From Bifidobacterium asteroides (GTDB lineage: Bacteria; Actinomycetota; Actinomycetes; Actinomycetales; Bifidobacteriaceae), in the NCBI RefSeq assembly GCF_019469425.1, contig NZ_CP048272.1:1736001-1800000 (forward strand): DNA of 64,000 nt. Reading direction: 5' to 3'. Both the position numbers and the translations under genes were made by a program. The notes under the pieces are model-generated. The model made no database searches and was not told where the DNA came from. It was given only the letters and a program-made list of their open reading frames with translations. Below, piece after piece: positions 34,531 through 56,531 of the stretch; position 1 is the first letter of the stretch, and each line of letters starts with the position of its first letter.

Positions 34531-36147
34531 CTATTCAGTCGGACCATCCTTGAATATGGCAATGTCCTGCATGCCGTTACGCTCATTGCAGGTCTGCTCA
34601 CCGTTGACCACGGCAAGGACTTTCTTACGAAAATCATTGAAAACCTGATCTCCGGGCTCATCCAGAAGACGTCCGGCGTCGAAGTCGATCCAACGGTGTT
34701 TCTTGGTGGCCAGGGGCGTGTTGGTAGCTACTTTCACCGTAGGCACGAAAGTTCCGAAAGGAGTACCCCGGCCAGTAGTGAAGAGGACCACTTGCGCTCC
34801 TGCTGCAGCCATTCCCGTACTGGAGACGAGGTCGTTGCCTGGCGTCTGCAGCAGAGAGAGCCCGGGTCTGGAGATATGGTCGCCATAGTTGAGCACATCC
34901 TCGACCTCGCAACGGCCACCTTTGCGGATGCAGCCCAAGGATTTATCCTCCAGAGTCGTGATTCCGCCCTTCTTGTTGCCTGGAGAGGGATTGTCGGATA
35001 TGACTTCGCCGTATTTACGGAAGAATCCCTTGAAATTATTGATAAGATTGACGACATCATGGAAGACCTGCTCGTCGCGTGCCTGGCTCATCAGGACCTG
35101 TTCTGCCCCGAACATTTCAGGGACCTCGGCCAGGACCACGGACCCGCCCTGGGCGACCACCCATTCAGCGAACCGGCCGACCAGCGGATTGGCCGTGATG
35201 CCTGACATTCCGTCGGACCCACCGCACTTGACGCTGACCTTGAGTTCGGACAGGGGCGTCTCTTCACGACGGTCATCATTTGCAGCCTCGTTGATCTGGT
35301 CCAGGAGGGCATCGGCCTCATCCAGCTCGTCCTCCACTTCCTGGCATATAATCCAACGAATTCGGTTCGTGTCATACTCGCCCAGGGTGCTCAGCATGTC
35401 CTCCATCTGATTGTTTTCACACCCCAGGCCAACGAGGAGAACACCCCCGGCGTTAGGATGGGTGGCGATGTCCTGAAGGCAACGCCTGGTGTAGACTAGA
35501 TCGCCTCCGAGTTGGGAGCATCCATAAGGGTGGCGCGCCACAACCACCGAGTCAAAAGATCCGTTGCCAGGATGGCGGGCTGAGAAAGACCGCGCCATGG
35601 CGTCGCACAGACTGTTGATGCAACCTACGGTCGGGACGATGTAGAGATCGTTGCGGATGCCTACCTTGCCCGTCGAGCGCCTGTACCCTTGGAAGGTCCC
35701 TGTCGGGCTGCCCGGCTTGACCGTGTCGGCAACCGGCTGATAACGGTAGTTCAGGTCGGCGCCCAGGTTGGTGGCCAGATTGTGCGTGTGGACCCATTGC
35801 CCCCTACTGATAGCCTCCTTGGCGTGGCCGATGGCATAGCCATACTTGATGACGTCCTCGCCCTTGGAAATGTTCTGAAGCGCGAGTTTGTGCCCTCGGG
35901 GAACTCGTCCGAGCACCGTCACCTCGCCACGACCCTCGACCATGACTCTTTCGCCGGGCTCCAGATTCCTGGCAGCGACAGCCACCATATCCGCCGGATT
36001 GAGCAGAATCGTGTCCTGGCCGGTCCGAGCCGGTATGTCCTCAAGATAATCGTGTTCCAAACCGACGGCTTGGCCCCCACCACAGGTGGGGACGAATCCT
36101 GTGGAACCGCCTTCTGGGATCATGCAATGCCTCTTCGCCTCACTCAT
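34531..36147 (-). CDS. uxaA: altronate dehydratase
   Basis: Converts D-altronate to 2-keto-3-deoxygluconate (KDG), the third step of galacturonate catabolism. The 538-residue protein has a small SAF-type N-terminal domain (about 35-120, with HTHNLATNLG) joined to the large UxaA catalytic domain. Conserved stretches are GCSQLGGD, GLGCENNQ, VSVKCGGSDGMSGITANP and, near the C-terminus, LFTTGRGTPFG. It is the first gene after the surface pectinase on the same strand and is separated from it by a strong terminator. The rest of the pathway lies 11-23 kb away in the island. Confidence 0.93.
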   Translation of the reverse strand: MSEAKRHCMIPEGGSTGFVPTCGGGQAVGLEHDYLEDIPARTGQDTILLNPADMVAVAARNLEPGERVMVEGRGEVTVLGRVPRGHKLALQNISKGEDVIKYGYAIGHAKEAISRGQWVHTHNLATNLGADLNYRYQPVADTVKPGSPTGTFQGYRRSTGKVGIRNDLYIVPTVGCINSLCDAMARSFSARHPGNGSFDSVVVARHPYGCSQLGGDLVYTRRCLQDIATHPNAGGVLLVGLGCENNQMEDMLSTLGEYDTNRIRWIICQEVEDELDEADALLDQINEAANDDRREETPLSELKVSVKCGGSDGMSGITANPLVGRFAEWVVAQGGSVVLAEVPEMFGAEQVLMSQARDEQVFHDVVNLINNFKGFFRKYGEVISDNPSPGNKKGGITTLEDKSLGCIRKGGRCEVEDVLNYGDHISRPGLSLLQTPGNDLVSSTGMAAAGAQVVLFTTGRGTPFGTFVPTVKVATNTPLATKKHRWIDFDAGRLLDEPGDQVFNDFRKKVLAVVNGEQTCNERNGMQDIAIFKDGPTE

Positions 36148-36257: not shown

Positions 36258-39200
36258 CTAGCGGCCCGACCGGGGATGCCAAGCAATCCCGATGAGGGCG
36301 ACAAGACCCATGAGGATTCCCGCAGCCGAAGCCAGAACCAGCTGGACCACACCAGAACCGGTATTGGCGAGGGAGGACCCGGCATCCCTCGACTCTGCGG
36401 GGAGCCTGCCCAACCTTCCGCCATCCGCCTTCCCGAGCGGCTGGCCGGGCACGGGCTCGCCCCCTGCAGCTGCGCCGGCACTGATTGCGCCCGGGTGAGC
36501 CGAGCCGGAATCGGCCGCCCCCGTCCCGTTGGCTCCGTTGGCGTCGTCCGTCCCGGCAGAACCGGAACCTGAACCAGGCCTGACCGTGATCGCATAGGTG
36601 GATACATTGGAAGCAACAGCCCCGTTGAAGGCCTGGAAGGTGAACCGATCGCTCCCGCTGAATCCTGGCTGAGGGGTATAGGAGAAGGCGCCGTCCTCAC
36701 GCATGGTAAGCAGACCGTGCTGAGGCTGATCCTTGACCTTGAAGGAGAGATTGGCCTCATCCTCGCTCTGGGCATAAGGCGCCAGAGTCGCGTTCAGCGT
36801 AACGCCTTGGTCAGTGGAACCCTGAGCAGCCACAGTGATCGGCGTGGCCGGCGATGGGGTGGGCGAGACCATCTTCGTGGGGTCCCAGTCATCGACTGCA
36901 TTGATGCCTGCAGAGCGCGCGAGGACCCGTTGAATCGTATAGTCGGAGACCTCTTGCTCCGATAGGGTTTTCGCCCACGGGACGCGACTGGGTTTGACGT
37001 CGTTCTCATAGGTGGATCCATATTCGGAGAATCTCGCAGTTGACTGGTTGGATGTCTTCCCCCAATCATTCCATCCTTCAGACAGGATGTGCCGCGCCAT
37101 ACTGGTATCGATGAAAGCCACGCTTGCATACGGTCTCCAAGGACGGCCCAGGTAGGTTTTGAGAGAACCGCTGTAGGGGTTCTCGGCAGTCAGCTTGCTA
37201 TGCAGGAAGACGAAGCCGTATTTCTGTTCCTTCGGCGTGCTGGCAGCAGTCACATAGCCATTCAGAACGGAATGCAAATCGCAATGATCGAAAACCGCGA
37301 TGGCTGATCCGAAAACGAAGTCCACCGACCCCGCAATAGTCGAATTCCTGAAATACATTCTGTTGGTCTGCACAGTTGGCTGATCCGGAGGATTGCTGCT
37401 GGCGGTCTCATCCGTACGGTTCTGCAAGTACAGGGTGTCCTGGTAACCCAGGATCCGGCAATTGTCGAAGGAGGCATGATCCGCGTTCACATCCAGGGCA
37501 ACTGCCTGGCCGACAGTAGAACCAGCCAGCGTCTGTATGGCAATGTCCCTGGCCACGAAATCCCCGCCGGTAATTTTGACGGCATAGTCGCCATAAGTAC
37601 CCAGGGGATTGCCGTCAGGGCCCAGATCATTGGGCTTGTCATCGTAAGTCAGGACGGTACCATCTGGATCCTGACCCTGGATGGTCACATAGGGACGGTC
37701 GATAAGCAGCTTCTCCCGATAGATCCCATGCTTGATGAAAATCACCCTTCGCTGGGCGTTCCTCTCCGGAATCGAAGCTAGGGCCTCCCCAACGGATCGG
37801 AAGTCACCACGCCCATCAGCCGAAACCACGGTGGGGGTGACCCCCTCCTTGTTGGCCGGGAGGACCAGGACCCTGGCCACGGCTTTGACGCCAGTGCCGG
37901 AAACAGTCCCCCGCACATCGAAGCCATCAATATTCTGGCTGGCATAGCGAGAAGGCTCGACCTTATCCCAGTCAACCGGCAGTATCCTTCTGCTTCCGTC
38001 ATTGAGGACGGCCTTGACCGCGATGGGCATGACCAGTCTGCCAGGGGTGGTTTTGACGATACTGTCGTCGATCGAAGCTATCGCCACCTTGGAAACGCGA
38101 ACAGAGGCCGTGACCCTGTCGCCCCCGGAACTTCCGGCAACCTGGAAGTCGCCCTCGCGGCTATAGGAGTCAGCGCTGATAGCCCCCCATGTAGCCTTGG
38201 CAGGTATGGCGCTTCCGTCGTCCAATGTGCGATAGATGGTCGTCGGCATGACCGGAGCCACGCCCACCGTAGTCATCACTTCTATCGGGACATATCCGGT
38301 TTGCACCTGCTGATTGGTGATCAGCACCGGCAGTATGCCTTGAATGCCCGAGCCATCCGTGGCTGTAGCCGTAACGAGCACAGTGCCGTTGGACTCGGCC
38401 TGGAGGAGACCGTTCTGATCAATCACAGCAGCACTGGTCTGTCCCAAATCAGGACGAAGGACCTGCCAGGTCACAGCATCCGAACGGTCGGGGCCGATCA
38501 GTCGTGCAGCGACCTGGAGGGATCCGCCTCTGCGATTGATAACGCCAGCCGGAGCTGTCAGCTCTATGCCTTGGAGACCGGCACCTGCGGCGGCATCGGA
38601 CTCGACGACCAGATCATCCAAGGCCATGCAGGCCTCCTGGGTGTTGGAATTGGCCATGTGCACTTCGAGCGCAGCCACCCCGGCGGCCTTGGTGTCGCTC
38701 AACGGCGCCTGAGTGACCGAACCTTGTCCGGCGACAGAGGCATCGATCTTCTTGGCATCGGTGTCCATGTGAATGTCAAGGGTGTACCAGGTGCCAGCCT
38801 CCAACTCATTGACGAGGGTCCGATCGCCTGATTTTCCAGTCAGAACCAACTTGGACCGCCGGAGGACGAAAGAAGCCGCAGCCTTGCCATTGCTGTCCTT
38901 GTAGGCGAGAACGGCATTGGAAGCCTTGGCAGGATCATCGGGAAACATAAACGAGAGGGAGGACTTGACCCGCCCCTGCTGCTGGCTGAAGACACGCTCA
39001 ATGGTCTCATAGCCAGGGCCCTTGTTGTCCAGGAGGAGGTATCCCCTCCCGTCCTCGTGGCGTACAACCGCACCGCCGCCGGTCTGGGAATCCTTGGTCT
39101 TCCAACCCTTGGGCAAGGATGCGCCCTCGGCCTCGAAATCGTCATGGACCGGGAACCCGTCATCCTTGTAGACCTTGCCGTCGCGGGTAACATTGACGGA

Positions 39201-40871
39201 GCGGGAAGCCGAGAGGCCATCGGTCAGGCTGGAATCGGCAAAGGACACATTCTGGGTTGTGTCCAGGAAGGCGCCATGGAATCGGCAATCGTCGAAACGG
39301 ATGTCCTTGAGGTACTTGACCAGGCCGTGCCCGAAGTTGGAGCCGCTGATATCGATGACGTTGTCCTTGCCGGCAGGCTTGTCCCAGTTGGGCGCCGTGA
39401 TATGGGAGAACTTGAAATTCTCGGTCTGCGGCAGGGGGGTCCGTGAATCCAGATCATCGACCGAAGTCCGGTCATAGTCGGTGATGACGCTGATCTTGTT
39501 GATCACACTGTCGCGCACCTGGATATTGCGCACGTATCCGCCTCGCTTGGGGCTGACCTTTACTCTGATACCGGGGTTGACCGCACCCGAAGTAAGGTCG
39601 ACCGGGACGATGGTAGAATCCTCCACGAAGACGTTGCGGACTCCTCCTGACATCTCGCTGCCGATGGTCACACCGCCATGGCCGGAGTTGAAAACGTCAC
39701 CGCGGAAATAGATGTTTTCAGATGGGCGAGCTATGGCAATGCCTTCGGCATCCTTCCCGGACTTGATGGCACTGCAATCATCGCCGGTAGAGAAGGATGC
39801 GCCAAGGATCCAGACGTTCGATGAGGAGTTGGGATCGAAACCGTCGCCATTATGGACCGAGGTGACCAATTGGAGGCCATACGCCGTAATGTCCTGGCTG
39901 TAGATGGGAACCACGGTCCACATCATCCCGTTGCGGATATGAATGCCATCCAGGTAGATGCCACCCACGTTCTTCATGCTGATCAGGCTGCCGCCGCCCA
40001 CATGCTGGCCAGGCTGGTAGATATTTGAAGGTATATCCAGATTCCCGCCATTGCCGTTGTGGGTGAAGTCATCGTAGGCCTTGCGCAGGAGCATGCCATT
40101 GGCCTCATCGCCGATAGTCCCCGGACCCATGATTTTGATGTTCCTGGTGGTCACTCCCGCCTTGCTGTCCATCTCACCGGCGTTGAGAAGACTGGAATAG
40201 GCGGGGTTGCGACCCATCACGTCCTCGATGTCGTGCCGTGCGGAGGTAAACGGATAGTCAGCCAGTTCCGCACTGGGCTTGAGCTGGGCGCCAGCATCAA
40301 CAAAGAAGCTCATGTCGCTGTGCAGGTTCAGCGCCCCGGAAAGGTAGGTGCCGGCAGGCAGATACACCTGGCAGTTCTTCTCTTTGCAGGCATCAATGGC
40401 CTTTTGGATGGCTGCCGTATCCTTCGTGCTGCCGTCGCCCAAGGCGCCGAAATCACGCACGTTATAGCGCTTTGGAGTAGCCATCGTGGTCAGGTGAAGC
40501 TTGGCTGATTGGTACGACAGCGTACCGTCAGCGCCAACCGCTCGAACCGTGAAGTCGTAGCCATGCTCTGGCCGCAAACCCAGGACCTTGAAATAAGTCA
40601 TGGAGGTGATCCCCGCCTCCTTGCCGTCACGGTAAATCCGGTACCCGGTGATCTTGTCGTACCCGGCAGGCTTGCTCCAGGTGAGCACCACCGACTGGTC
40701 GGTCAGCGATGCCGGCGCCTGAGCCAGGGCCGATGGCGTCTCAACTGCGATCGGATCGGTCTCACCCGCCCAGGCGTTCTGGGCTCCGGCAATCCCCGTG
40801 GATTCCACGCCCACCAACATAGCCACTGCGGCTATGCCGGCCCAAACGGCTGCAATTCGCTTTCGAATCAT
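36258..40871 (-). CDS. cell-wall-anchored polygalacturonase (GH28) - pectin methylesterase (CE8) fusion
   Basis: A 1537-residue secreted enzyme. In order: signal peptide (1 to about 35), fibronectin III-like domain (45-129), GH28 (136 to about 560), a lectin-like sandwich (575-760), three Ig-like domains (767-1008), CE8 (1012 to about 1313), a cadherin-like domain (1357-1427) and a Gly/Ser/Ala linker. The C-terminus has sorting signal LANTG (1501-1505), a hydrophobic helix and a basic tail. GH28 residues are intact: NGD 341-343, DD 364-365, GHG 397-399, RVK 436-438. CE8 motifs are GQAVAL, GYQDTLY (about 1142), GSVDFVFG (about 1185) and LGRPW (about 1242). It should demethylate and hydrolyse pectin at the surface. 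LAxTG is the type recognised by class E sortases. RBS AAGGAGG precedes the ATG. Confidence 0.93.
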   Translation of the reverse strand: MIRKRIAAVWAGIAAVAMLVGVESTGIAGAQNAWAGETDPIAVETPSALAQAPASLTDQSVVLTWSKPAGYDKITGYRIYRDGKEAGITSMTYFKVLGLRPEHGYDFTVRAVGADGTLSYQSAKLHLTTMATPKRYNVRDFGALGDGSTKDTAAIQKAIDACKEKNCQVYLPAGTYLSGALNLHSDMSFFVDAGAQLKPSAELADYPFTSARHDIEDVMGRNPAYSSLLNAGEMDSKAGVTTRNIKIMGPGTIGDEANGMLLRKAYDDFTHNGNGGNLDIPSNIYQPGQHVGGGSLISMKNVGGIYLDGIHIRNGMMWTVVPIYSQDITAYGLQLVTSVHNGDGFDPNSSSNVWILGASFSTGDDCSAIKSGKDAEGIAIARPSENIYFRGDVFNSGHGGVTIGSEMSGGVRNVFVEDSTIVPVDLTSGAVNPGIRVKVSPKRGGYVRNIQVRDSVINKISVITDYDRTSVDDLDSRTPLPQTENFKFSHITAPNWDKPAGKDNVIDISGSNFGHGLVKYLKDIRFDDCRFHGAFLDTTQNVSFADSSLTDGLSASRSVNVTRDGKVYKDDGFPVHDDFEAEGASLPKGWKTKDSQTGGGAVVRHEDGRGYLLLDNKGPGYETIERVFSQQQGRVKSSLSFMFPDDPAKASNAVLAYKDSNGKAAASFVLRRSKLVLTGKSGDRTLVNELEAGTWYTLDIHMDTDAKKIDASVAGQGSVTQAPLSDTKAAGVAALEVHMANSNTQEACMALDDLVVESDAAAGAGLQGIELTAPAGVINRRGGSLQVAARLIGPDRSDAVTWQVLRPDLGQTSAAVIDQNGLLQAESNGTVLVTATATDGSGIQGILPVLITNQQVQTGYVPIEVMTTVGVAPVMPTTIYRTLDDGSAIPAKATWGAISADSYSREGDFQVAGSSGGDRVTASVRVSKVAIASIDDSIVKTTPGRLVMPIAVKAVLNDGSRRILPVDWDKVEPSRYASQNIDGFDVRGTVSGTGVKAVARVLVLPANKEGVTPTVVSADGRGDFRSVGEALASIPERNAQRRVIFIKHGIYREKLLIDRPYVTIQGQDPDGTVLTYDDKPNDLGPDGNPLGTYGDYAVKITGGDFVARDIAIQTLAGSTVGQAVALDVNADHASFDNCRILGYQDTLYLQNRTDETASSNPPDQPTVQTNRMYFRNSTIAGSVDFVFGSAIAVFDHCDLHSVLNGYVTAASTPKEQKYGFVFLHSKLTAENPYSGSLKTYLGRPWRPYASVAFIDTSMARHILSEGWNDWGKTSNQSTARFSEYGSTYENDVKPSRVPWAKTLSEQEVSDYTIQRVLARSAGINAVDDWDPTKMVSPTPSPATPITVAAQGSTDQGVTLNATLAPYAQSEDEANLSFKVKDQPQHGLLTMREDGAFSYTPQPGFSGSDRFTFQAFNGAVASNVSTYAITVRPGSGSGSAGTDDANGANGTGAADSGSAHPGAISAGAAAGGEPVPGQPLGKADGGRLGRLPAESRDAGSSLANTGSGVVQLVLASAAGILMGLVALIGIAWHPRSGR

Positions 40872-41037: not shown

Positions 41038-42678
41038 TTATCGCTGGTGATCTTGTTGATCTTTTGCCACCTCCTGATAGTCGAAACCATTGAAGTCTGC
41101 ATATGAACGGTGGGCATCCATATCCTGAGCACAGATGCCGACCATGGCTCCGGAAAAGACGGTCTTCCCCCGGAGCGCTCCTACGTGGTCATCGCTGAGA
41201 TGGTTGGCTGGCAGAGTGCCCCCCAAAGGCCGGAGATTGTCGCGTTCACCTCGGAGGCTGTCCTGGTCCTGGCTGAAATAGAAGCGGGCCCTCGATCCCC
41301 GAACCTTCACTGCAAGGCCCACGCCCATGCCAGCCTGAAGAGGCAGCAGGTCGCTCCCGAAACTGAAGCGATCCCCTTCGTTGATGAGGATGCGGGCCAC
41401 CGGGCAGTCGCGCTCTTCCTCCTGTGCTGTGACGTAAGCGTACATCCAGTTGGCAGTATCGTAGAAGAGGACCAGGCCGGCGGTCTGCTGGAAGTTGGCG
41501 GGTTCGAACTCCATCCAGGTAAAGGCATCAAAGTTGAAGGCCTGCCAGCGACGGGCCAGCAGGGTTTGCCTGTGCAGGCTGGACAGGCTCTGGCCGCCAT
41601 GGAGCCGCAGCCATCCCGGACGCTCCTTCAGGGAGTAATCAACCTCAGGACGCAAGGGACCACGAAGAGTCTTGAAGGAGGCAGGCAGGCCGCTGGTCGG
41701 CGTAAATCGGACGGATTCGGAACGATCCACAACCTGTTTGGCCGTACTTTCCCTGACCTCCACATGAAGAGACGGATTATGGCCGCCATTGGCCAGGAGC
41801 GGCCAGTCGTCCTGATCCCAGACGATGGGATCCAGGCTGGTCTCCCTGCCCAGAACGCAATCCCCCCTATGGCCCAGAGGACGTGAGCAGAGATAGGCTA
41901 TGTACCATTGGCCTTTGTATTCCAAAAGGCTGCAGTGCCCTGCTTTCTGGATGGGCCCGTCCGGATCGTCCTTGGAAGTGATCAAAGGCGTATGGGGGGA
42001 TTCCTCCCAAGGTCCTGTCAGCTTGCTTGAACGCACCACCGTGGCTGCATGATTCCACTCGGTCCCACCAGCTGCGCATACCAGATAGTAGTAGCCGTGA
42101 CGGCGATAGATCTGCGGTCCCTCACAGACCCCCAGGCTCGTGCCTCGAAAGATGCGGCGGCGAGGTCCGACCAGACGCTTGGCGCTGGTATCAAACTCCT
42201 GGATGACCACGCCAGCGAAACGCTCATGGTCCATTCGCCAGTCATAGAGCATATTGACGAACCATGAACGCCCATCCTCATCATGGAAGAGGGAGGGGTC
42301 GAAGCCGGAAGCCGTTACAAAAACAGGATCGGACCAAGGTCCGGTAATGGAAGGGGCAGTGACGATGTAGTTCAGCGTGTCCTTGTATATGGTCCCGGTC
42401 TTCACATCGGTGAAGACGAGCCAGTACAACCCCTTGGCATAGGAGAGGTGAGGCGCCCAGATAGCTCCGGCATTCGGATCCCCCATCAGGTCGGCCTGGC
42501 TGGTCCGGGTCAGGGGCGAGCACACCCACTCCCAGTTCACCAGATCTGTCGAGTGATAGATGTCGACCCCTGGCCACCATTCGAAGGTGGAGTTGGCTAT
42601 GTAATAGTCCTCCCCCACTTGAAGGGCGGACGGGTCGGGATGGAATCCCGGGATGATGGGATTGGTCAGACTGCTCAT
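41038..42678 (-). CDS. glycoside hydrolase family 43 (xylosidase/arabinofuranosidase-like)
   Basis: A 546-residue cytoplasmic enzyme (no signal peptide) with an N-terminal five-bladed propeller (about 1-320) and a C-terminal beta-sandwich (about 330-530), the layout of XynB-type GH43. The three acidic residues are visible: base Asp in NPIIPGFHPDPS, pKa-modulating Asp in SGFDPSLFHDEDG, and acid Glu in LGVCEGPQIY. It probably removes xylose or arabinose from imported oligosaccharides. Its RBS (GAGGAACG) overlaps the stop of the upstream permease gene, so it belongs to the importer operon. A longer upstream reading in frame overlaps that permease and is rejected. Confidence 0.9.
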   Translation of the reverse strand: MSSLTNPIIPGFHPDPSALQVGEDYYIANSTFEWWPGVDIYHSTDLVNWEWVCSPLTRTSQADLMGDPNAGAIWAPHLSYAKGLYWLVFTDVKTGTIYKDTLNYIVTAPSITGPWSDPVFVTASGFDPSLFHDEDGRSWFVNMLYDWRMDHERFAGVVIQEFDTSAKRLVGPRRRIFRGTSLGVCEGPQIYRRHGYYYLVCAAGGTEWNHAATVVRSSKLTGPWEESPHTPLITSKDDPDGPIQKAGHCSLLEYKGQWYIAYLCSRPLGHRGDCVLGRETSLDPIVWDQDDWPLLANGGHNPSLHVEVRESTAKQVVDRSESVRFTPTSGLPASFKTLRGPLRPEVDYSLKERPGWLRLHGGQSLSSLHRQTLLARRWQAFNFDAFTWMEFEPANFQQTAGLVLFYDTANWMYAYVTAQEEERDCPVARILINEGDRFSFGSDLLPLQAGMGVGLAVKVRGSRARFYFSQDQDSLRGERDNLRPLGGTLPANHLSDDHVGALRGKTVFSGAMVGICAQDMDAHRSYADFNGFDYQEVAKDQQDHQR

Positions 42679-42686
42679 AACGTTCC

Positions 42687-43688
42687 TCACTGCTTGACCG
42701 CGCCGGCCGAAAGACCGGATTGCCAGTACCGCTGCAGGAAGAGGAAGGCGATAATCAACGGCACGATGGCTATCAGCGACCCGGTCAGAATCATGTTGTT
42801 GGGCACCACATGGTAGGTAGCGTCGCCTCCCATCTTCATCCAGACGTTCAGGCCCACAGTAAGCGGGTAGTCTTTGACGTCGGAGAGCATGATCAAAGGC
42901 AGGAAGTAGTTGTTCCAGACACTGACCAAGGCGAAGAGGAGCGTGGTGACGAAACCTGGAGCAAGCAGAGGCATGGCAATCTTCCAGAATATGGTCCAGG
43001 TGTTGGCGCCATCGATCCTTGCAGCCTCCACCAGGGATATAGGGATGGAAGTCTGGGCATAGATGATCATCAAGTACAGACCAAAGGGGTTGGACAGCTG
43101 AGGAATGATGACGGCCCATGGTGTATTGGTCATGCCTATCTTCGAGTACAGGAGGAAGAGGGGAACCGTGATGACCGTGGAAGGTATCGACATGAAGATC
43201 AGCGTGACCCAAAGCAGCGCTTTACGTCCGTGGAACTTCATTGTGGCAATGGCATACCCGGCGAAAGTGGCGAAGAGCGTGGCTCCCAAGCCGGCTACGA
43301 TTGCATAGACCAGGGTGTTGATCAGCCAACGGCCGTAAGTTCCATTCTGAAAAACGAACACGTCATGGATGTTCTGGAAGAAAGCGTTTTGGTCAGAGAA
43401 CCAAAGCCCGGGGGAACTGTAGAGTCCCTCATTGGTCTTAGTCGAAGAGAAGACCAGCCAGATCAAGGGAATCAGACAGTAAATGACCATGATCAGCATG
43501 ATCAGGTGCAGGAGGATATCCATGACCTTCTGCGCTGGGGTCAGACGGACCGGGACGCCACTGCCGCCAGAGGCCTTTCGCAGCCTTATGGCATGATCTT
43601 TCCGCGCTAATTGAGCATCGCGCCTGCTCAGTGATGCAGGACGCTTTGGGGCCTGTATGGGTTGGGATTCGGTTTGCGCACTGGACAT
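42687..43688 (-). CDS. ABC sugar importer permease (MalG type)
   Basis: A 333-residue inner-membrane permease with six predicted helices and a polar N-terminal tail. The ABC contact (EAA) loop reads ISLVEAARIDGANTWTIFWKIAMPLLAPG near residue 230. It belongs to the carbohydrate uptake CUT1 family. The gene starts 3 bp after the stop of the partner permease and is followed within 8 bp by GH43. No ATPase gene accompanies the set. Confidence 0.93.
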   Translation of the reverse strand: MSSAQTESQPIQAPKRPASLSRRDAQLARKDHAIRLRKASGGSGVPVRLTPAQKVMDILLHLIMLIMVIYCLIPLIWLVFSSTKTNEGLYSSPGLWFSDQNAFFQNIHDVFVFQNGTYGRWLINTLVYAIVAGLGATLFATFAGYAIATMKFHGRKALLWVTLIFMSIPSTVITVPLFLLYSKIGMTNTPWAVIIPQLSNPFGLYLMIIYAQTSIPISLVEAARIDGANTWTIFWKIAMPLLAPGFVTTLLFALVSVWNNYFLPLIMLSDVKDYPLTVGLNVWMKMGGDATYHVVPNNMILTGSLIAIVPLIIAFLFLQRYWQSGLSAGAVKQ

Positions 43689-43691
43689 GGT

Positions 43692-44612
43692 TTACCTCCC
43701 CTCCCAGCGGTTGCCCAGGGTCTTGACAACAGTGATGATGATCATGGTGAAGAGGCCGACAACCAGAGAGACGGCAGCCGCGTAATTCAGATCATTGCCA
43801 CTGAAAGCCAAGGAATAGGTGTACAGGTTTGGCGTGTAGTAGCTGGTCACGACCTCAGGCGCAATGGTCTGCATCATGCTGGGGGTGTTGAACAGCTGCA
43901 GCGCATAGATGATGTTGAAGAGCAGGGTCATGACCACCGAGGAACGAATCTGCGGAATCTTGACTGACCAAGCGATTCTGAACTCGGATGCTCCATCCAC
44001 CCTGGCCGATTCATAAAGCTCCTCGGGCAGGGCCTTTAAGGACGAATAGTAAATCAGGGTGTTGTACCCCATGGATACCCAGATGCTGATGTTGATCATG
44101 GCGAAGATCATCAGTTCCTTGGACATCATGTTGGGTGCATGCCCGTTGAAGAGTCTGAAGAACTGCCCAATCAGGCCATAGTCGGTGCCATAGATGTAGC
44201 TCCACATCAGAGCGGCGATGACATTGGGAACAGCATAGGGCAGGAAGAGCAGGATGCGCGGGATGGCCACATGCCGGATCCTCTGGGAATCCAGCATCAA
44301 GGCCGCCAGGAGGGCGAGGAAGGTCATGAGCGGCACTTCAATGATCGCAAATACGGCAACCCGCTTGAAACCGTCCCAAAGCAGGGGGTCCTTCAGGGCC
44401 CTGATGTAATTGGCGAAGCCTGTGAACTGCTCGCCGCCTATCATCTGCTGCTTGAACAGGCCCAGATAAAACGCATAGACCATCGGGATTATCGTCCCGC
44501 CGAGGAAGACGATCACGTAGGGCAGGCACCACAACATTCCAATGTGCTGGAGCCGCTCCTTGCGCGATTCCGCCCGGGATCCGGGCCCGGCGGATACACT
44601 CACTGCGCTCAT
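43692..44612 (-). CDS. ABC sugar importer permease (MalF type)
   Basis: A 306-residue permease starting MSAVSVSAGPGSRAESRKER with six helices. The EAA loop is KALPEELYESARVDGASEFRIAWSVKIPQ near residue 205. The start at 44612 has RBS AAAGGAAAG; the longer frame reading upstream lacks one. It pairs with the MalG-type permease directly downstream and the lipoprotein gene upstream. Confidence 0.93.
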   Translation of the reverse strand: MSAVSVSAGPGSRAESRKERLQHIGMLWCLPYVIVFLGGTIIPMVYAFYLGLFKQQMIGGEQFTGFANYIRALKDPLLWDGFKRVAVFAIIEVPLMTFLALLAALMLDSQRIRHVAIPRILLFLPYAVPNVIAALMWSYIYGTDYGLIGQFFRLFNGHAPNMMSKELMIFAMINISIWVSMGYNTLIYYSSLKALPEELYESARVDGASEFRIAWSVKIPQIRSSVVMTLLFNIIYALQLFNTPSMMQTIAPEVVTSYYTPNLYTYSLAFSGNDLNYAAAVSLVVGLFTMIIITVVKTLGNRWEGR

Positions 44613-44646
44613 GGCGCTTTCCTTTCTTGAAAAATCTAAAGTGGAA

Positions 44647-44674
44647 GCCCCGAGGCCATGCCGGCCTGCGGGGC
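44647..44674 (-). terminator. attenuating hairpin between binding-protein and permease genes
   Basis: GCCCCG / CGGGGC plus AGGCC / GGCCT with a single bulged C, without a following T run. Such stems after binding-protein genes usually keep the lipoprotein in excess over the permeases by protecting the upstream mRNA. Confidence 0.55.
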
Positions 44675-44685
44675 GATATCCGCTG

Positions 44686-46083
44686 CTACTTGACGGTGAT
44701 CTTGAAGCCCTGCCCATCGGCATAGGTCTTCAAGGAAGACTGCCACTTGGAGAAGGAGCCAAACAGGTCTCCGCCCTTCTTCATTTGCGGCACGACGATA
44801 TCCTTGAAGTCCGTGGCGTACTGTGAGTTGAAGGGAAGAACCGACCAGTTGGCATTGAGAGCATCAGCCGACTTGAAATAGACCGTATTGACCTTTTGAC
44901 CGCCAAAGTAGTCGTTGGGCGCATTGGCAGCGTCCTTGTCCGTTTGGAAGGATTTGGCCGCGTTGAAGAAGCTTCCCGTCTTCTGGAAAAGGTCGATGGA
45001 CTGCTTATCCGAACCCATCCAGTTGATGAAGGCGACGGCTGCGGCCTGTTTCTCCTTGGCGCACTTTGAAGTTACGGAGAGCAGCGATCCGCCTATCTCG
45101 CTGGTCTTGAGACCAGCGGATCCATCGCCCCAGGCCGGCGGGAGGGCCACTTCAAACTTCCCCTTGAGGGAGGGCTGCTGCTGGACGAAAGAGGTGCCCT
45201 TCCAGCAACCATCGAACTGGATGCCCCAACGGCCCTGGGCGAATCCGCGGTTGTACTGATCGCTCTTATTGGCTACCGGCTCAAGCACATCCTCATCAAT
45301 CAGCTTTTGAATGAAATCGGCGGCCTCCTTGACCTTGGCATTGGTCATGTCAAGAGTCACATCCTGAACACCCTTGACGGTCCAGGGTTTGGCGCCGGAC
45401 TGACGGACAATGGAAGCCATGTAGCGAACATCAGTGGTGTCGACGAAGCTCATGTACCTGTTGGGGTCAGCCTTGTGCAGGGCGATGCCCTCTTCCTCGA
45501 ATTCCTTCCAGGTGGTGGGCACCTTCAGACCGAACTGATCCAAAACGTCGTGACGGACAAACATGACCTCGGGTCCCTGATCCAACGGGGTGCCATACAG
45601 TCCGTCAGCTACATGGACATTTTTCCAGGCTGCGTCATTATATAGTTTGCCCATGTCGGACTCAATGCTCTTGTCCGCGAAGTTCAGGAGCGAATTCGTC
45701 ACTGCGAACTGGGGCAGGTAGTCGTATTCCAGCTGGACGATGTCAGGAACATCCTTGCCTGACTTCAATATGTTCTGAAACTTCGTGTAGTGATCGGATG
45801 AAGCACCCGTTTGAGTCACATTGACCTTGATGTTGGGGTACTTGGCCTGGAAGGCATCGATGTTGGCCTGCTCGATGTCATAACGCCAGGTCCAGAAGTT
45901 CAGCGTCACCTTCTTGTCGGACTTGAGCGCCTGGTTCACGTCGCTCATCGTCATGCCGCCGCTGTCCTTCCCGGCCTTCGGCGAGGATGAATCGCCGCTG
46001 CCTCCGCAGGCCGTCAACCCGATGATCATAGCCAGCCCGGCACATACGCTCAGGGCCTGTCTTCCCTTTGTTCTCCAGCTCAT
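44686..46083 (-). CDS. ABC importer solute-binding lipoprotein (CUT1, SBP family 1)
   Basis: A 465-residue extracellular sugar-binding lipoprotein. The start at 46083 (MSWRTKGRQALSV) gives a lipobox LTAC with lipidated Cys26. A 29-codon upstream extension in the same frame would bury the signal peptide and is rejected. The mature protein shows MalE-like features: LNFWTWRYD, FQAKYPNIKVNVTQT and AVAFINWMGSDKQ. It is the first gene of the importer-GH43 operon. Its promoter carries two palindromes. Substrate (xylo-, arabino- or galacturono-oligosaccharide) is unknown. Confidence 0.92.
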   Translation of the reverse strand: MSWRTKGRQALSVCAGLAMIIGLTACGGSGDSSSPKAGKDSGGMTMSDVNQALKSDKKVTLNFWTWRYDIEQANIDAFQAKYPNIKVNVTQTGASSDHYTKFQNILKSGKDVPDIVQLEYDYLPQFAVTNSLLNFADKSIESDMGKLYNDAAWKNVHVADGLYGTPLDQGPEVMFVRHDVLDQFGLKVPTTWKEFEEEGIALHKADPNRYMSFVDTTDVRYMASIVRQSGAKPWTVKGVQDVTLDMTNAKVKEAADFIQKLIDEDVLEPVANKSDQYNRGFAQGRWGIQFDGCWKGTSFVQQQPSLKGKFEVALPPAWGDGSAGLKTSEIGGSLLSVTSKCAKEKQAAAVAFINWMGSDKQSIDLFQKTGSFFNAAKSFQTDKDAANAPNDYFGGQKVNTVYFKSADALNANWSVLPFNSQYATDFKDIVVPQMKKGGDLFGSFSKWQSSLKTYADGQGFKITVK

Positions 46084-46116
46084 ACCAGTTGCCTTTCGAT
46101 AATCTTCATTGATTTT

Positions 46117-46133
46117 GCGATTATTATTATCGC
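46117..46133. promoter_or_regulatory. palindrome in the importer leader
   Basis: GCGAT-N7-ATCGC with an ATT-repeat spacer, just downstream of the predicted start of transcription of the importer operon. A related GCGATCGC lies at 46197-46204. Possible repressor site. Confidence 0.4.
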
Positions 46134-46141
46134 TGTTTTCG

Positions 46142-46170
46142 ATAGTAGTTGTGATGTCAATCACAGTCAA
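46142..46170 (-). promoter_or_regulatory. importer operon promoter with TGTGA-N6-TCACA operator in the spacer
   Basis: Minus strand: TTGACT, 17 bp, TACTAT. The spacer plus the edge of the -35 box contains the palindrome TGTGATTGACATCACA (46150-46165), of the CRP/GlxR form TGTGA-N6-TCACA. A protein bound there would occlude RNA polymerase, so it reads as a repressor site rather than an activator site. Confidence 0.6.
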
Positions 46171-46306: not shown

Positions 46307-46344
46307 TACTGATCCTATTCAAACATGAGATGCTAGGGGGAACC

Positions 46345-47400
46345 ATGAGTTCAAGCTCGTCGTCCAGCAATGGCAAGAATCCAACCTTAGCCGACGTCGC
46401 ATGCCGGGCCGGGGTCTCCATCGCCACCGTATCCAAGGTGATAAACGGAAAGAGCGATGTGGCCGAAAAGACTCGCGAACGGGTCGAACAGGCCATCGAT
46501 CAGCTCGGATACTTCAGGTCAGGCAGGACCGGAGCCTCTTCCAACCTGATCGAATTGGCCCTGCAACATCTGGACAATCCATGGACCCTGAATCTTCTGG
46601 ACGGGGCTGCCGAAGTAACTTCCAGCCGCGGAATCCGGCTGGTTCTGAGCGAAATCAACGATCCCCGTCTTCTGGCCACGAGGTGGCTGGACGAGGTTTT
46701 GGCCCGCCGGCCCCTGGGTGCCATCCTGATCTTCTCCAACCCATCGGCCGATCTGGCCAGACGGTTCGCGTCACGCCGCATACCAGCGGTCTTCGTTGAC
46801 CCGTGGGGAAACCCGATTCTGGGAACCATGTCGGTTCAATCCGACAACTGGTCCGGCGGGCTCTTCGCCACCCGCCATTTAGTCGAACTGGGCCATCAGC
46901 GTATTGGCACCATCACAGGACCCGATGGGGTCATGTGCTCCATAGCCCGCCTAGACGGCTACCGAACCGCCTTGCACGAGGCTGGCCTGGGATTTGATCC
47001 GAGACTGATCCGCCAAGGGCGATTCAGCGTGGCGGACGGCGAACGATTCGCCATGGAGTTGCTGAACCTCGACGATCGCCCCACCGCCATCTTCGCCCAG
47101 AGCGACTTTCTGGCCATGGGAGTCTACAAAGCTGCCAAACGCCTAGGCATCCGCATTCCTGAGGAACTCTCGGTAGTCGGCTTTGACGACATACAGACAG
47201 CGGGATTCATGGGACCCGCGCTGACCACCATCCATCAGCCCCTGATGGAAATGGCAGCCAGGGCGGCGACGATGATCCTGGATGCCAGATCGGGCAAGAC
47301 CGTCGACCCCAGAGCCATCCTGCCCAACACCCTTGTCGTCCGGGAATCGACCTGCCCGCCGCCGAAACACGCGGACCACAGGCAGGCAGGAGCCCTATAA
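46345..47400 (+). CDS. LacI-family transcriptional regulator, divergent from the importer operon
   Basis: A 351-residue repressor starting MSSSSSSSNGKNPTLADV behind RBS AGGGGG. The helix-turn-helix is TLADVACRAGVSIATVSKVINGK, followed by hinge and periplasmic-binding-protein-like effector domain with SVVGFDDIQTAGFMGPALTTI near residue 275. It is divergently placed to the SBP-permease-permease-GH43 operon with a 260-bp shared control region and should regulate it. It ends convergently 26 bp from uxaC. Confidence 0.93.
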   Translation: MSSSSSSSNGKNPTLADVACRAGVSIATVSKVINGKSDVAEKTRERVEQAIDQLGYFRSGRTGASSNLIELALQHLDNPWTLNLLDGAAEVTSSRGIRLVLSEINDPRLLATRWLDEVLARRPLGAILIFSNPSADLARRFASRRIPAVFVDPWGNPILGTMSVQSDNWSGGLFATRHLVELGHQRIGTITGPDGVMCSIARLDGYRTALHEAGLGFDPRLIRQGRFSVADGERFAMELLNLDDRPTAIFAQSDFLAMGVYKAAKRLGIRIPEELSVVGFDDIQTAGFMGPALTTIHQPLMEMAARAATMILDARSGKTVDPRAILPNTLVVRESTCPPPKHADHRQAGAL

Positions 47401-47426: not shown

Positions 47427-48836
47427 TCAGCTGCTTGCAAAAAGAGACAGCGCGTTCTCATAGGAGACCGCACGCACCAGAGGAGCAAGATGCTCCTTGT
47501 CATCAGGGATGATGCCCTGAGCGGCCCAGTCGCCCAAGAGCCCGCAGAGCACCCTGCGGAAGAGCTCGTGTCTGGGGAAAGACAGGAAACTGCGGGAGTC
47601 CGTAGTCATTCCCACCGCATTGCCCAGGAGTGAGGTTTCAGCCAAAACTTCGAGCTGCCGACGCATCCCGGAGACGGTGTCGTTGAACCACCAGGCGTTG
47701 CCCAACTGAAGCTGGCCCTGATCATCGCCTCCGAAGCAGCCCAAATCAGTGGCTATGGCCATATAGTCGTTGGGGTTGAGGGAATAGACAATGGTTCTGG
47801 GCAAGATATTCGAGCTCTGCGCCTGGTCAAGGAGGGCGGCGAGAGGGGCGGCAACCGAATTGTCAGCCATGGAATCGTAACCCGTGTCGGCTCCAAGCTT
47901 CCCAAAAGCCGTCGAGTTGTTGTTGCGTCTGGCCTGGAGGTGGAGCTGCATGGTCCAGCCCCTATCCTTGTAGATTCGCATCAGCTCAAGAAGGAGGGCC
48001 GCACGATATTGGGCCTGTTCCTGCCTATCAAGGCCTAGACCTGCCCTGGCCTTGCTGAAAATGGCATCCAGATTTTCGACAGTCGACGGAGCGAACTCGA
48101 CCACATCGACAGCATGGTCGGAGAGTCTGGAGCCATGCTGGTGGAAGTAATCAACCCGATCGCGCAGAGCGTCAACCAGTTCGCTGAAGTCATTGATCGG
48201 CTTGCCGCAGACCGACTCCATTGTGCCGATCCAATCGCCATATCCATTAGCGGTCGGATTCAGGGCGGCATCGGGGCGGAAGGCGGGAACCATCCTAAAG
48301 GGCTCCCCCTCCTTGGCGAATTGATCGTGATACTCCAGATTATCCTCAGGGGAATCCGTGGTGCAGACGATCTTGACGTTCATGCGACGCAGAAGCGCTC
48401 TTCGCGAGAAGTCCGGGGTGGCCAGCTGCTCATTCGTCTGGTCAAAGATGGACTTGGCGGTCTTGGTGGTCAGGGGTTCGCAAATGCCGAAGTATCTCCG
48501 CAGCTCCATGTGCGTCCACAGATAGACCGGACTGCCTACAGCCTGTTCCATGGTCTGGGCGTAAGCCATAAATTTCTCCCAAGGGCCCCCGTCTCCGGTG
48601 ATCAGCCGTTCCGGAATGCCGTTGGCCCTCTCCAGCCGCCATTTATAGTGATCTCCATAATTGCGGCCATCTGTCAGCCAGGCATCGACAATATTATCGA
48701 AGTTGGGATCCTCGTAGATCTCCTTGGCGTGCAAATGGCAATGATAATCCACCAGAGGAAGATTCTCAGCTACGTCATGGAACAAGTCCCGAGACAACTG
48801 CGTCCCGAGGAGAAAATCGTCATCCAGGAAAGCCAC
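47427..48836 (-). CDS. uxaC: uronate isomerase
   Basis: Isomerises D-galacturonate to D-tagaturonate and D-glucuronate to D-fructuronate, the entry step of both branches. The 469-residue protein has the N-terminal metal-binding motif LPLVDYHCHLHAKEIYED and the late MTTDSRSFLSFPRHE region with the catalytic Asp/Arg. The GTG at 48836 (MAFLDDDFLLG) is chosen because AAGGAG precedes it by six bases and it aligns with family starts; an ATG 12 codons upstream lacks an RBS. It lies downstream of the two tandem lacI genes on the same strand. Confidence 0.95.
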   Translation of the reverse strand: MAFLDDDFLLGTQLSRDLFHDVAENLPLVDYHCHLHAKEIYEDPNFDNIVDAWLTDGRNYGDHYKWRLERANGIPERLITGDGGPWEKFMAYAQTMEQAVGSPVYLWTHMELRRYFGICEPLTTKTAKSIFDQTNEQLATPDFSRRALLRRMNVKIVCTTDSPEDNLEYHDQFAKEGEPFRMVPAFRPDAALNPTANGYGDWIGTMESVCGKPINDFSELVDALRDRVDYFHQHGSRLSDHAVDVVEFAPSTVENLDAIFSKARAGLGLDRQEQAQYRAALLLELMRIYKDRGWTMQLHLQARRNNNSTAFGKLGADTGYDSMADNSVAAPLAALLDQAQSSNILPRTIVYSLNPNDYMAIATDLGCFGGDDQGQLQLGNAWWFNDTVSGMRRQLEVLAETSLLGNAVGMTTDSRSFLSFPRHELFRRVLCGLLGDWAAQGIIPDDKEHLAPLVRAVSYENALSLFASS

Positions 48837-49025
48837 TACAAACTCCTTAGTCGAAAACAGCAAGTCCAGCATTCGAATTTCCGCAATGCCTAAAATTCTT
48901 CTGTACAGACCAACGGACAGGCGAAACAGTCACGCGATCGGAACTCGCATATGCTATTGGTCAGCCTATGCGCGCCTGAAGAGGCAGAGCATGATGTTGC
49001 CATGATTTGTCGGAACCTCCCCTGA

Positions 49026-54231: not shown

Positions 54232-55677
54232 TCATGCCAATCGGTCTATCAGGGGCTGGACACCCTGGTCGGCCAAATCGTCCAAGTCCTTCTGGACAGC
54301 CTCCGCTAGCCCTGCGATTCTGGTCAGGTCATGGCCCCAAACGGAGGCATCAGAAAGAATCCGGTTGACGAAATCATCCTGACCAGCAGCCTTGTGGAAG
54401 GCATCGATAACCTTCTGATCATCCTGAATCTTCACAGCATCACCGGCCTTGCCGCCATAATTCCACAACAGGCAGGACAGCGTCAGGACGATGCGTTCCG
54501 GAAGCCCACTCCCCTGCTCTGCGTTGGCCGTAACCAGCGGGAGAAGGCGTGAGACGAATTTGGAGACCGAGTTCAACCCTATGGAATCCAAAGAATGCTG
54601 GACAAAGGGGTTGTCGAACCGCTCGCGAACCGCAGCAGCGAAGCTCTCCAGCTCCTCCTTGGGCAGTGTCTGGACGGGGATGATCTCCTCTTCCATCTCA
54701 CGGGTAATGAAAGAACGCATGGTCCTATCGCCCATGACCTGTCCTACAGTCTTGAATCCGGCCAACCGGGCCACTTGGGCCATAGTGGTATGAGGACCGT
54801 TGAGCAGATAAACCTTGCGCTCACGGTAGGGCTGTACAGCATCGCAGGTCACCAGGTCGATTCCGGCCTTCCGCGCGGGAAGCAGCTCATCGACCTTGCG
54901 CTGGGCGGTCTGGTCGCCAGCTACGACCCAGAGCAGGAAGGGCTCGGCCTTGACCATGTTCTGGTCCTCGTAACCCAGCTTCTCCCAAAGCTCCTGGGCA
55001 TCTTCGCGCGGGTAGCCAGGAACTATGCGATCCACGAGAGTGGATACGAAGGTGTTCTCCCGATCAAGCCAGTCGATGAAATCCTTACCCCATCCAAACC
55101 GTTCAGCGACATTTATCAGAGCATGATGCAGGGCCGGACCGTTGTCGGCGATAAGCTCGCAAGGCATAATCAGGAAGCCTGGCATGGACCTGTCGAACCT
55201 ACGCTTGAGCAGATGAGCCAACTTCGCCGGATATCCCGCTGGCGGACGGTCTGTGACCTTATCCCCATCATTGACGGCAATGCCCGCTTCGGTGGTATTG
55301 GAGATGATGATCTGCGTATCAGGATCATCGGCTAGAGCCAGAAACCCATCCCAGTCCTGGTAGGGGTCGACTGTCTTGCCGATAGAGTCAATCAGCTCAT
55401 GGCTGCGGACGGGCTTTCCATCCTTGAGACCTTCCAGAATGACTGTATAAAGCCGCTCCTGGTCCTCCAAGACTTGGACTCTGCCCTTTTCAAGGGGCTG
55501 AACAACTGCTGCATTCCCCCCGAACAAGCCCTTGTTGTTGAGCTGCTGGACTATCCAATCAACGAATGCTCTGAGAAAATTTCCCTCACCGAACTGGATG
55601 ATCCTGATGGGTCGTTGAGCTGCCTCTGTACTAGTCAGCCCCAGATGCACGGCCACTGCTTCCCGTAATCTTTCCAC
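54232..55677 (-). CDS. uxaB: tagaturonate reductase (altronate oxidoreductase)
   Basis: Reduces D-tagaturonate to D-altronate with NADH. The 481-residue product has the Rossmann start IRIIQFGEGNFLRAFVDWIVQQLN and the family segment NTTEAGIAVNDGDKV. A substrate-binding part DRIVPGYPRED and KVYLLNGPHTTMAQVARLAG follow. The start is GTG at 55677 behind GGAAAGGAAGC; a longer reading in frame has no RBS and would give an odd N-terminus. It is the last gene of the kdgK-eda-uxaB operon. Confidence 0.93.
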   Translation of the reverse strand: MERLREAVAVHLGLTSTEAAQRPIRIIQFGEGNFLRAFVDWIVQQLNNKGLFGGNAAVVQPLEKGRVQVLEDQERLYTVILEGLKDGKPVRSHELIDSIGKTVDPYQDWDGFLALADDPDTQIIISNTTEAGIAVNDGDKVTDRPPAGYPAKLAHLLKRRFDRSMPGFLIMPCELIADNGPALHHALINVAERFGWGKDFIDWLDRENTFVSTLVDRIVPGYPREDAQELWEKLGYEDQNMVKAEPFLLWVVAGDQTAQRKVDELLPARKAGIDLVTCDAVQPYRERKVYLLNGPHTTMAQVARLAGFKTVGQVMGDRTMRSFITREMEEEIIPVQTLPKEELESFAAAVRERFDNPFVQHSLDSIGLNSVSKFVSRLLPLVTANAEQGSGLPERIVLTLSCLLWNYGGKAGDAVKIQDDQKVIDAFHKAAGQDDFVNRILSDASVWGHDLTRIAGLAEAVQKDLDDLADQGVQPLIDRLA

Positions 55678-55773
55678 AATGCTTCCTTTCCGTCCGCTCG
55701 CATCCCGCCCATACGGGGGATCCGACCAGATCATCGAACCTGGCGATCGATGACTAGCCCGGGACTCTGGCAC

Positions 55774-56439
55774 TCAGCCTTGCACCACCTGCCTGGCCTT
55801 CGCACAAGCATCAGCAACGGCTTTCCAATCGCCTCGGCGCTGGGCCTGGGACGGTACAGGGAAACTCCCGCCCACAGCAAAGACGTTGGGCAGGTCGATG
55901 TATTCACGAGCGTTCCCGAACCCAACTCCTCCGGTGGGCAAGAAGCTCATCTCTGCAAAGGGGCCGGAGAGTGCCTTCAAGGTCTTGATGCCACCGTAAG
56001 CCTCGGCTGGGAAGAACTTAGTAAAACGCAGACCAAGATCATAGGCTTTCTCAATGTCGCTGGGAGTCGCCGTTCCAGGCAAGACCGGGATCCGGGAGCC
56101 CGTGCACCAGTCGACCACAGCATCGTTGAAGGCCGGGGAGACGATACCCTTGCAACCTGCCTGCACTGCCTGGCGTGCCTGGTCGACCGTGTGCACAGTT
56201 CCTGCCACCAGGGTCACCTCAGGCACCTGGTCATAAATAGCCCGCATCCCGTCCAGGGCGGCAGCCGATCGGAAGGTGACTTCCGCGATGGGCACTCCAC
56301 CGGAAGCCAGGGCCCTAGCCAGAGGAACCGCTTCCTCGGGTGAATGCAGGGTCACCAGGGGGACCACTTTGATTGTTCTGATCAGATCAATCAATCCGAT
56401 CCGCTCCTCCGGTACGTCCGTCTTGCCAAACTCGCTCAT
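55774..56439 (-). CDS. eda: 2-keto-3-deoxy-6-phosphogluconate aldolase
   Basis: Splits KDPG into pyruvate and glyceraldehyde 3-phosphate, the last step of hexuronate breakdown. The 221-residue (beta/alpha)8 enzyme has the catalytic Glu in AEVTFRS (about residue 54) and the Schiff-base Lys in LRFTKFFPAEAYGG (about 142). GIVSPAFN and LPTGGV (phosphate binding) are also present. It lies between kdgK and uxaB on the same strand, with gaps of about 95 bp each side. Confidence 0.95.
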   Translation of the reverse strand: MSEFGKTDVPEERIGLIDLIRTIKVVPLVTLHSPEEAVPLARALASGGVPIAEVTFRSAAALDGMRAIYDQVPEVTLVAGTVHTVDQARQAVQAGCKGIVSPAFNDAVVDWCTGSRIPVLPGTATPSDIEKAYDLGLRFTKFFPAEAYGGIKTLKALSGPFAEMSFLPTGGVGFGNAREYIDLPNVFAVGGSFPVPSQAQRRGDWKAVADACAKARQVVQG

Positions 56440-56531
56440 GCCTGCTTCCTTCTCTTGTGGAATTGAACTTGTTGAATCGAATCCATCGCCTGTCTATGGA
56501 GGGCTTCTGATCGTCGCCCGGATAAACCGGC

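Follow-up and report, generated by a model that had tools for sequence, protein, structure and literature searches.

Proteins in which a pectin methylesterase is fused to a pectin depolymerase are known from ruminococci, whose CE8-PL1-dockerin and PL10-CE8 proteins carry both enzymes on one chain, most of them equipped with a module that attaches them to a surface system (PMC4081043). In these proteins the depolymerase is a lyase (PL1 or PL10), and a dockerin or CBM37 is found instead of a sortase signal (PMC4081043). GH28 genes have been reported in bifidobacteria of fruit-eating hosts (PMC8074910), and the breakdown of pollen glycans has been credited to bee Bifidobacterium (PMC12518797). 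The exo-polygalacturonase of Yersinia enterocolitica (2uve/2uvf) comprises an FN3-GH28 unit and lacks CE8, Ig-like domains and a sortase signal, while the CE8 pectin methylesterases 1gq8 (carrot), 2nsp (PemA) and 8tne (Butyrivibrio Pme8A) were solved as constructs devoid of a GH28 partner. Bifidobacteria are usually regarded as consumers of small sugars or of those from side chains.

The window analysed here, a stretch of DNA of 64,000 nucleotides, encodes a protein that has the FN3-GH28 unit in common with the Yersinia enzyme, and the fold (Z 36-37) and motifs in common with the three methylesterases. With a methylesterase and a pectin depolymerase in one frame, it belongs with the CE8-depolymerase bifunctional pectinases. 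Very probably the protein is secreted, anchored by a sortase and degrades homogalacturonan with two activities, an exo-acting GH28 and a CE8, feeding an adjacent importer and a galacturonate pathway. Its enzyme activities and exo mode, its anchoring, and the product with its uptake are inferred from sequences and predicted models.

Architecture of the fusion protein

The fusion gene is an open frame at 36258-40871 (minus strand, as are all its parts), the same coordinates as in the original prediction, coding for 1537 aa from an ATG start with a strong Shine-Dalgarno sequence, AAGGAGG, 7 bases ahead of it. The order is signal peptide, FN3, GH28, concanavalin-A-like, Big_2, two Big_4, CE8, Big_9 and LANTG signal. 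The signal peptide (approximately residues 1-36; 40764..40871) has a basic N-terminus and a hydrophobic core (KD15 maximum 2.45). The fibronectin type III domain (residues 40-130; 40482..40754) was matched by Pfam fn3 at 55-118 (E 7e-10, above cut-off) and aligned in the model with the FN3 of the Yersinia exo-polygalacturonase. The GH28 exo-polygalacturonase-like part (residues 131-569; 39165..40481) matched Glyco_hydro_28 (PF00295) at 296-461, with E 2e-17 and 63.9 bits against a cut-off of 22.9, and its first turns were covered by Pect-lyase_RHGA_epim (residues 137-185, above cut-off). The CE8 pectin methylesterase part (residues 1011-1325; 36897..37841) matched Pectinesterase (PF01095) at 1015-1317, with E 2e-57 and 194.6 bits against a cut-off of 27. 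The domain search thus recovered both enzymes, which the original prediction had placed on a single chain.

The prediction of lectin-like and Ig-like spacers between them also held. Residues 575-765 (38577..39149), between GH28 and Big_2, had no match in Pfam or in a PDB sequence search, and were modelled by AlphaFold as a confident beta-sandwich, mostly of high pLDDT. Its best match was the concanavalin-A-like part of BT_1020 (5mqr 411-614; Z 23.4, rmsd 2.3, 180 residues), and it is considered a lectin/CBM-like domain. A Big_2 Ig-like domain (residues 766-855; 38307..38576) follows, with a Pfam E of 2e-4, slightly below the cut-off here and above it in the Bifidobacterium canis relative, and then two Big_4 Ig-like domains (residues 856-1010; 37842..38306), found by Pfam as two stretches (E 2e-12, above cut-off). 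Beyond CE8 lies a Big_9/cadherin-like domain (residues 1340-1433; 36573..36854; Pfam 1344-1429, E 6e-9, above cut-off). The AlphaFold models, made from alignments of the fusion protein and its relatives, covered residues 38-1010 (pLDDT 82.5) and 570-1440 (pLDDT 81.1); their pTM was low (0.56-0.59), and they do not fix the relative placement of the domains.

The GH28 part contains the catalytic motifs NGD 341-343 (D343), GDD 363-365 (D364, D365), GHG 397-399 (H398) and RVK 436-438 (R436, K438), and together with the right-handed beta-helix fold and the PF00295 profile they assign it to family GH28. The CE8 part contains QAVAL (Q1122), QDT (D1145), VDFVFG (D1184) and LGRPW (R1243, W1245); its profile, beta-helix fold and QAV / QD / D(F/Y/W)(I/V)FG / LGRPW motifs assign it to CE8, and its model was closest to bacterial and plant pectin methylesterases (8tne Z 37.4, 1gq8 Z 36.7). 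Both motif sets are intact, in agreement with the catalytic residues originally predicted, and are kept in all intact relatives and in B. canis, with conservative substitutions only at positions flanking the CE8 motifs.

At the C-terminus, the predicted LANTG sorting signal was located at residues 1501-1505, followed by a hydrophobic stretch, a basic tail and the stop (36258..36371). All Bifidobacteriaceae versions end in xxxTG before the hydrophobic stretch (LANTG, LSRTG, LAATG, LTATG, LSATG and VAHTG), and the version of Caproiciproducens has no sorting signal at its C-terminus. The genome encodes a sortase of class E (253 bits, cut-off 160) and another of class C. LAxTG is the motif preferred by class E sortases in Actinobacteria, and LANTG fits it. 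Signal peptide, pentapeptide motif, hydrophobic stretch, basic tail and sortase are those of a sortase-anchored protein, so that the fusion protein is probably anchored to the wall, although LANTG is a variant of LPxTG and not LPxTG itself, and LSRTG in genome G001 and VAHTG in B. canis depart from it further.

Gene neighbourhood and galacturonate pathway

The fusion gene belongs to a run of six genes on the same strand, coding for a solute-binding protein, two permeases, a GH43 protein, the fusion protein and altronate dehydratase. The solute-binding protein and permeases form an ABC sugar importer (42687..46170, minus strand; Pfam) whose place next to the fusion gene is conserved in six genomes. 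The GH43 protein (41038..42687, minus strand) is beta-xylosidase-like, with Pfam matches to GH43 and GH43_C2 and a xylan beta-1,4-xylosidase as best PDB match (1yrz, E 4e-152); its open frame as listed reaches 43212 only through an upstream TTG. Altronate dehydratase (uxaA-like; 34531..36147, minus strand) was identified by Pfam GD_AH. A divergent LacI-type regulator (46330..47400, plus strand; Pfam) and uronate isomerase (uxaC; 47427..48872, minus strand; NCBIfam glucuronate isomerase, 553 bits, cut-off 387) are next to the run, and tagaturonate reductase (uxaB; NCBIfam, 527 bits, cut-off 359), KDPG aldolase (eda; NCBIfam, 209 bits, cut-off 156) and a KDG kinase-like PfkB protein (kdgK; PfkB match) are located at 54232..57536 (minus strand). 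Judging by gene content, the whole route from galacturonate to pyruvate and glyceraldehyde phosphate would be present. LacI regulators and a mannonate dehydratase were also found beside the run. Operator-like palindromes were searched for in the intergenic stretches and none adjoined the fusion gene.

A second protein of the mannitol dehydrogenase family, of uncertain substrate, is encoded at 51359-53002 of the window, adjoining uxuA; it matched fructuronate reductase models weakly (95 bits, cut-off 603).

Distribution, conservation and loss

According to a whole-genome search, the fusion gene is the sole GH28 and the sole CE8 of its genome, and no PL1 lyase, the lyase family covered, was detected. 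In G041, G183, G184 and B. canis (G120), too, the fusion gene accounts for the only GH28 and the only CE8; G001 has additional GH28 matches outside it. Across 189 Bifidobacteriaceae species genomes, GH28 was present in 44 and CE8 in 18, and both in one gene in only six: intact in the source genome (G000), G001, G041 (the Bifidobacteriaceae MAG UW_DM_BIF1_1), G183 and G184, and broken in B. canis. Outside this family the fusion core was found in the clostridium Caproiciproducens galactitolivorans. No further fusions were seen in the sampled 398 Bacillota, 200 Caproiciproducens-family and 247 Bacteroidota genomes, although distant ones could be missed with this query, and among viral contigs only a distant CE8 fragment matched. 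The architecture is thus rare and not common in described bifidobacterial proteins; it is not unique to the source genome.

Several candidates were rejected as fusions. Bacteroidota G935 and G839 have stops in the frames, and their GH28 and CE8 are separate close genes. The long CE8 frames of Bacillota (L113, L114, L115, L117 and L127) contain Ig, FN3, SLH or HEAT domains and no GH28, L119 has GH28 and no CE8, and the remaining bifidobacterial CE8 frames (528-1324 aa) have no GH28.

Identity to the source fusion protein was 89% in G001 (same genus), 58% in G183 and G184, 56% in G041 and 47% for the core of C. galactitolivorans. Leaving G001 aside, conservation was 59-77% in GH28, 53-67% in CE8 and 32-57% in the concanavalin-A-like and Ig-like spacers. 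The dN/dS values between G000 and G001 were 0.074 for GH28, 0.080 for CE8, 0.095 for FN3, 0.14-0.28 for the spacers and 0.41-0.42 for Big_9 and the tail, the strongest purifying selection being on both catalytic domains. Such values in the catalytic domains, together with the conservation in G001, indicate that the frame is not due to chance. The genes kdgK, eda, uxaB, uxaA, LacI, uxaC, GH43, importer and fusion occur together in G000, G001, G041, G183, G184 and B. canis, in a somewhat variable order. In B. canis a single TAG interrupts the frame of the fusion gene near residue 521 (L017:11380-11720) and the LacI regulator of the same cluster is fragmented (L066:8372-9386), as a result of either recent decay or errors in sequencing.

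In the CE8 tree, the domains of Bifidobacteriaceae and Caproiciproducens formed one clade (100/99), and in the GH28 tree the fusion proteins and a free-standing FN3-GH28 of Clostridium muellerianum did so (100/99). The simplest reading of these phylogenies is a single origin of the fusion and an inter-phylum transfer in one direction or the other. The C. galactitolivorans locus (L018:5175-16831), where a 2290-aa GH28-GH28-CE8 protein lies beside uxaA, uxaB, uxaC and GH43, as in bifidobacteria, is probably related to the bifidobacterial loci by such a transfer.

The locus has also been lost. In G005 (same genus) a stretch of about 10.4 kb is gone that began within the fusion gene and extended close to the end of the LacI gene, the uronate genes being kept, and two scraps of the fusion gene (equivalents of 36258-36337 and 36683-36869) persist between intact uxaA and uxaC. 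In G012 (same genus) 64 bases of the fusion gene survive in the equivalent gap. The deletion scars are at L141-L142 (G005:C1:519000-522000) and L145-L146 (G012). G016, G010 and G003 are without the pectin part, and G024 is without the whole cluster; from full locus to none, the natural series is G000/G001, G005, G012/G016/G010/G003, G022 and G024. Remnants at the same site in two genomes of the genus indicate that the locus was ancestral in the lineage and was lost repeatedly, and its loss as one module ties together enzyme, importer and GH43. A cytochrome bd oxidase encoded outside the window (G000:C1:433134-434531) was present in 24 of the 27 genomes of the genus and in none of ten other Bifidobacteriaceae, each of another genus; respiration of Bifidobacterium asteroides is the subject of PMC3447821, and the two together point tentatively to an insect lineage of the asteroides type.

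Proposed function and comparison with known systems

In the proposed mechanism, CE8 would strip the methyl esters from pectin and the FN3-GH28 unit would hydrolyse the bared chain from its non-reducing end to mono- or digalacturonate. The concanavalin-A-like and Ig-like domains would hold the two catalytic helices apart and may bind substrate, and the LANTG signal would tie the protein to the wall, so that product is freed beside the ABC importer and processed inside the cell by UxaC, UxaB, UxaA, KDG kinase and KDPG aldolase. A further hydrolase would be required if digalacturonate were the product. Methylated residues would be expected to stall an exo-enzyme, and a tethered methylesterase is therefore sensible and likely to matter. 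A cluster for galacturonate uptake and catabolism fits the original suggestion that product is kept at the cell surface, a retention that is presumed here.

The GH28 part is best modelled as exo-acting, since the closest match of the FN3-GH28 model was the Yersinia exo-polygalacturonase, its FN3 included (2uve_B; Z 39.4, rmsd 2.2, 482 residues, 32% identity). An endo-acting GH28 in the same bifunctional pectinase, with oligogalacturonides partly shared with the community, is unlikely. Pfam GH28 spans both modes, the Z to the endo-polygalacturonase 1bhe was still 33.2, and an endo mode might be anticipated for the only depolymerase of a genome; however, this match was weaker (347 residues), as were those to other endo-polygalacturonases (Z ≤ 33, about 345 residues), the three best matches by sequence and by Foldseek were exo-acting enzymes (by sequence, the Yersinia enzyme was followed by 3jur and 5olp), and no gene for cleaving oligogalacturonides was recognised in the cluster. 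An exo-acting GH28 of the Yersinia type, attacking from a closed pocket, would supply a feed of mono- or digalacturonate, not random cuts. Even less credible, indeed extremely improbable, is a protein that is mainly an adhesin or surface coat, with pectinase folds kept for binding and not for catalysis. It would account for the many Ig-like domains and the wall signal, and adhesins with a beta-helix fold are known, PfbA being one. Against it, none of the intact relatives has lost the catalytic motifs, and the gene stays linked to those for the importer and for galacturonate use.

A more serious alternative, still doubtful, concerns the main substrate, which might be xylogalacturonan or another substituted galacturonan, from which GH28 would free Xyl-GalA or GalA and an intracellular GH43 would take off the xylose. 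The conserved GH43 neighbour is nearest to beta-xylosidases and adjoins GH28 in Bifidobacteriaceae, Caproiciproducens and C. muellerianum. On the other hand, GH43 identities between species are low (37-59%, closest pair excluded), so that its substrate may differ, GH43 may serve xylo-oligosaccharides instead, and CE8 suggests methylated homogalacturonan as a major substrate. That GH43 constantly accompanies GH28, C. muellerianum included, points to an additional use of galacturonan substituted with xylose. The preferred reading remains an anchored exo-GH28/CE8 enzyme of homogalacturonan. With about even confidence it can be extended to a one-protein pectin strategy, in which the sole extracellular homogalacturonan enzyme of a (probably bee-associated) bifidobacterial lineage is wall-anchored and works together with an importer and the Ashwell pathway; in this view the system came to be common to bifidobacteria and a clostridium through transfer, and was deleted as one module on several occasions.

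For a bifidobacterium, the locus represents a complete genetic basis, open to testing, on which a wall-bound enzyme would attack the methylated backbone of pectin and galacturonate would be used. Should the host lineage be bee-associated, the locus is relevant to the question of which organisms digest pollen-wall pectin. Exo-hydrolase and methylesterase on one chain also allow the effect of tethering on stalling at methylated residues to be tested.

In open-licence full texts, a collection with most subscription journals outside its coverage, no account was found of a chain combining GH28 and CE8, nor of a bifidobacterial protein of this kind. GH28 and CE8 occur as separate neighbouring genes in several phyla, and the same enzyme pair is encoded by adjacent genes, as two proteins, in B. 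avesanii (L027), Paenibacillus (L020), a Cetobacterium plasmid and Bacteroidota G935. A close counterpart is the Caproiciproducens protein, in which the FN3-GH28-ConA-Big_2-Big_4-Big_4-CE8 core aligns end to end; unlike the bifidobacterial protein, it has an additional N-terminal GH28 and a FIVAR domain, and no recognisable Big_9. The parts are therefore familiar, while a predicted exo-GH28 as the partner of CE8 on a sortase anchor seems to be a rare, new and previously undescribed combination.
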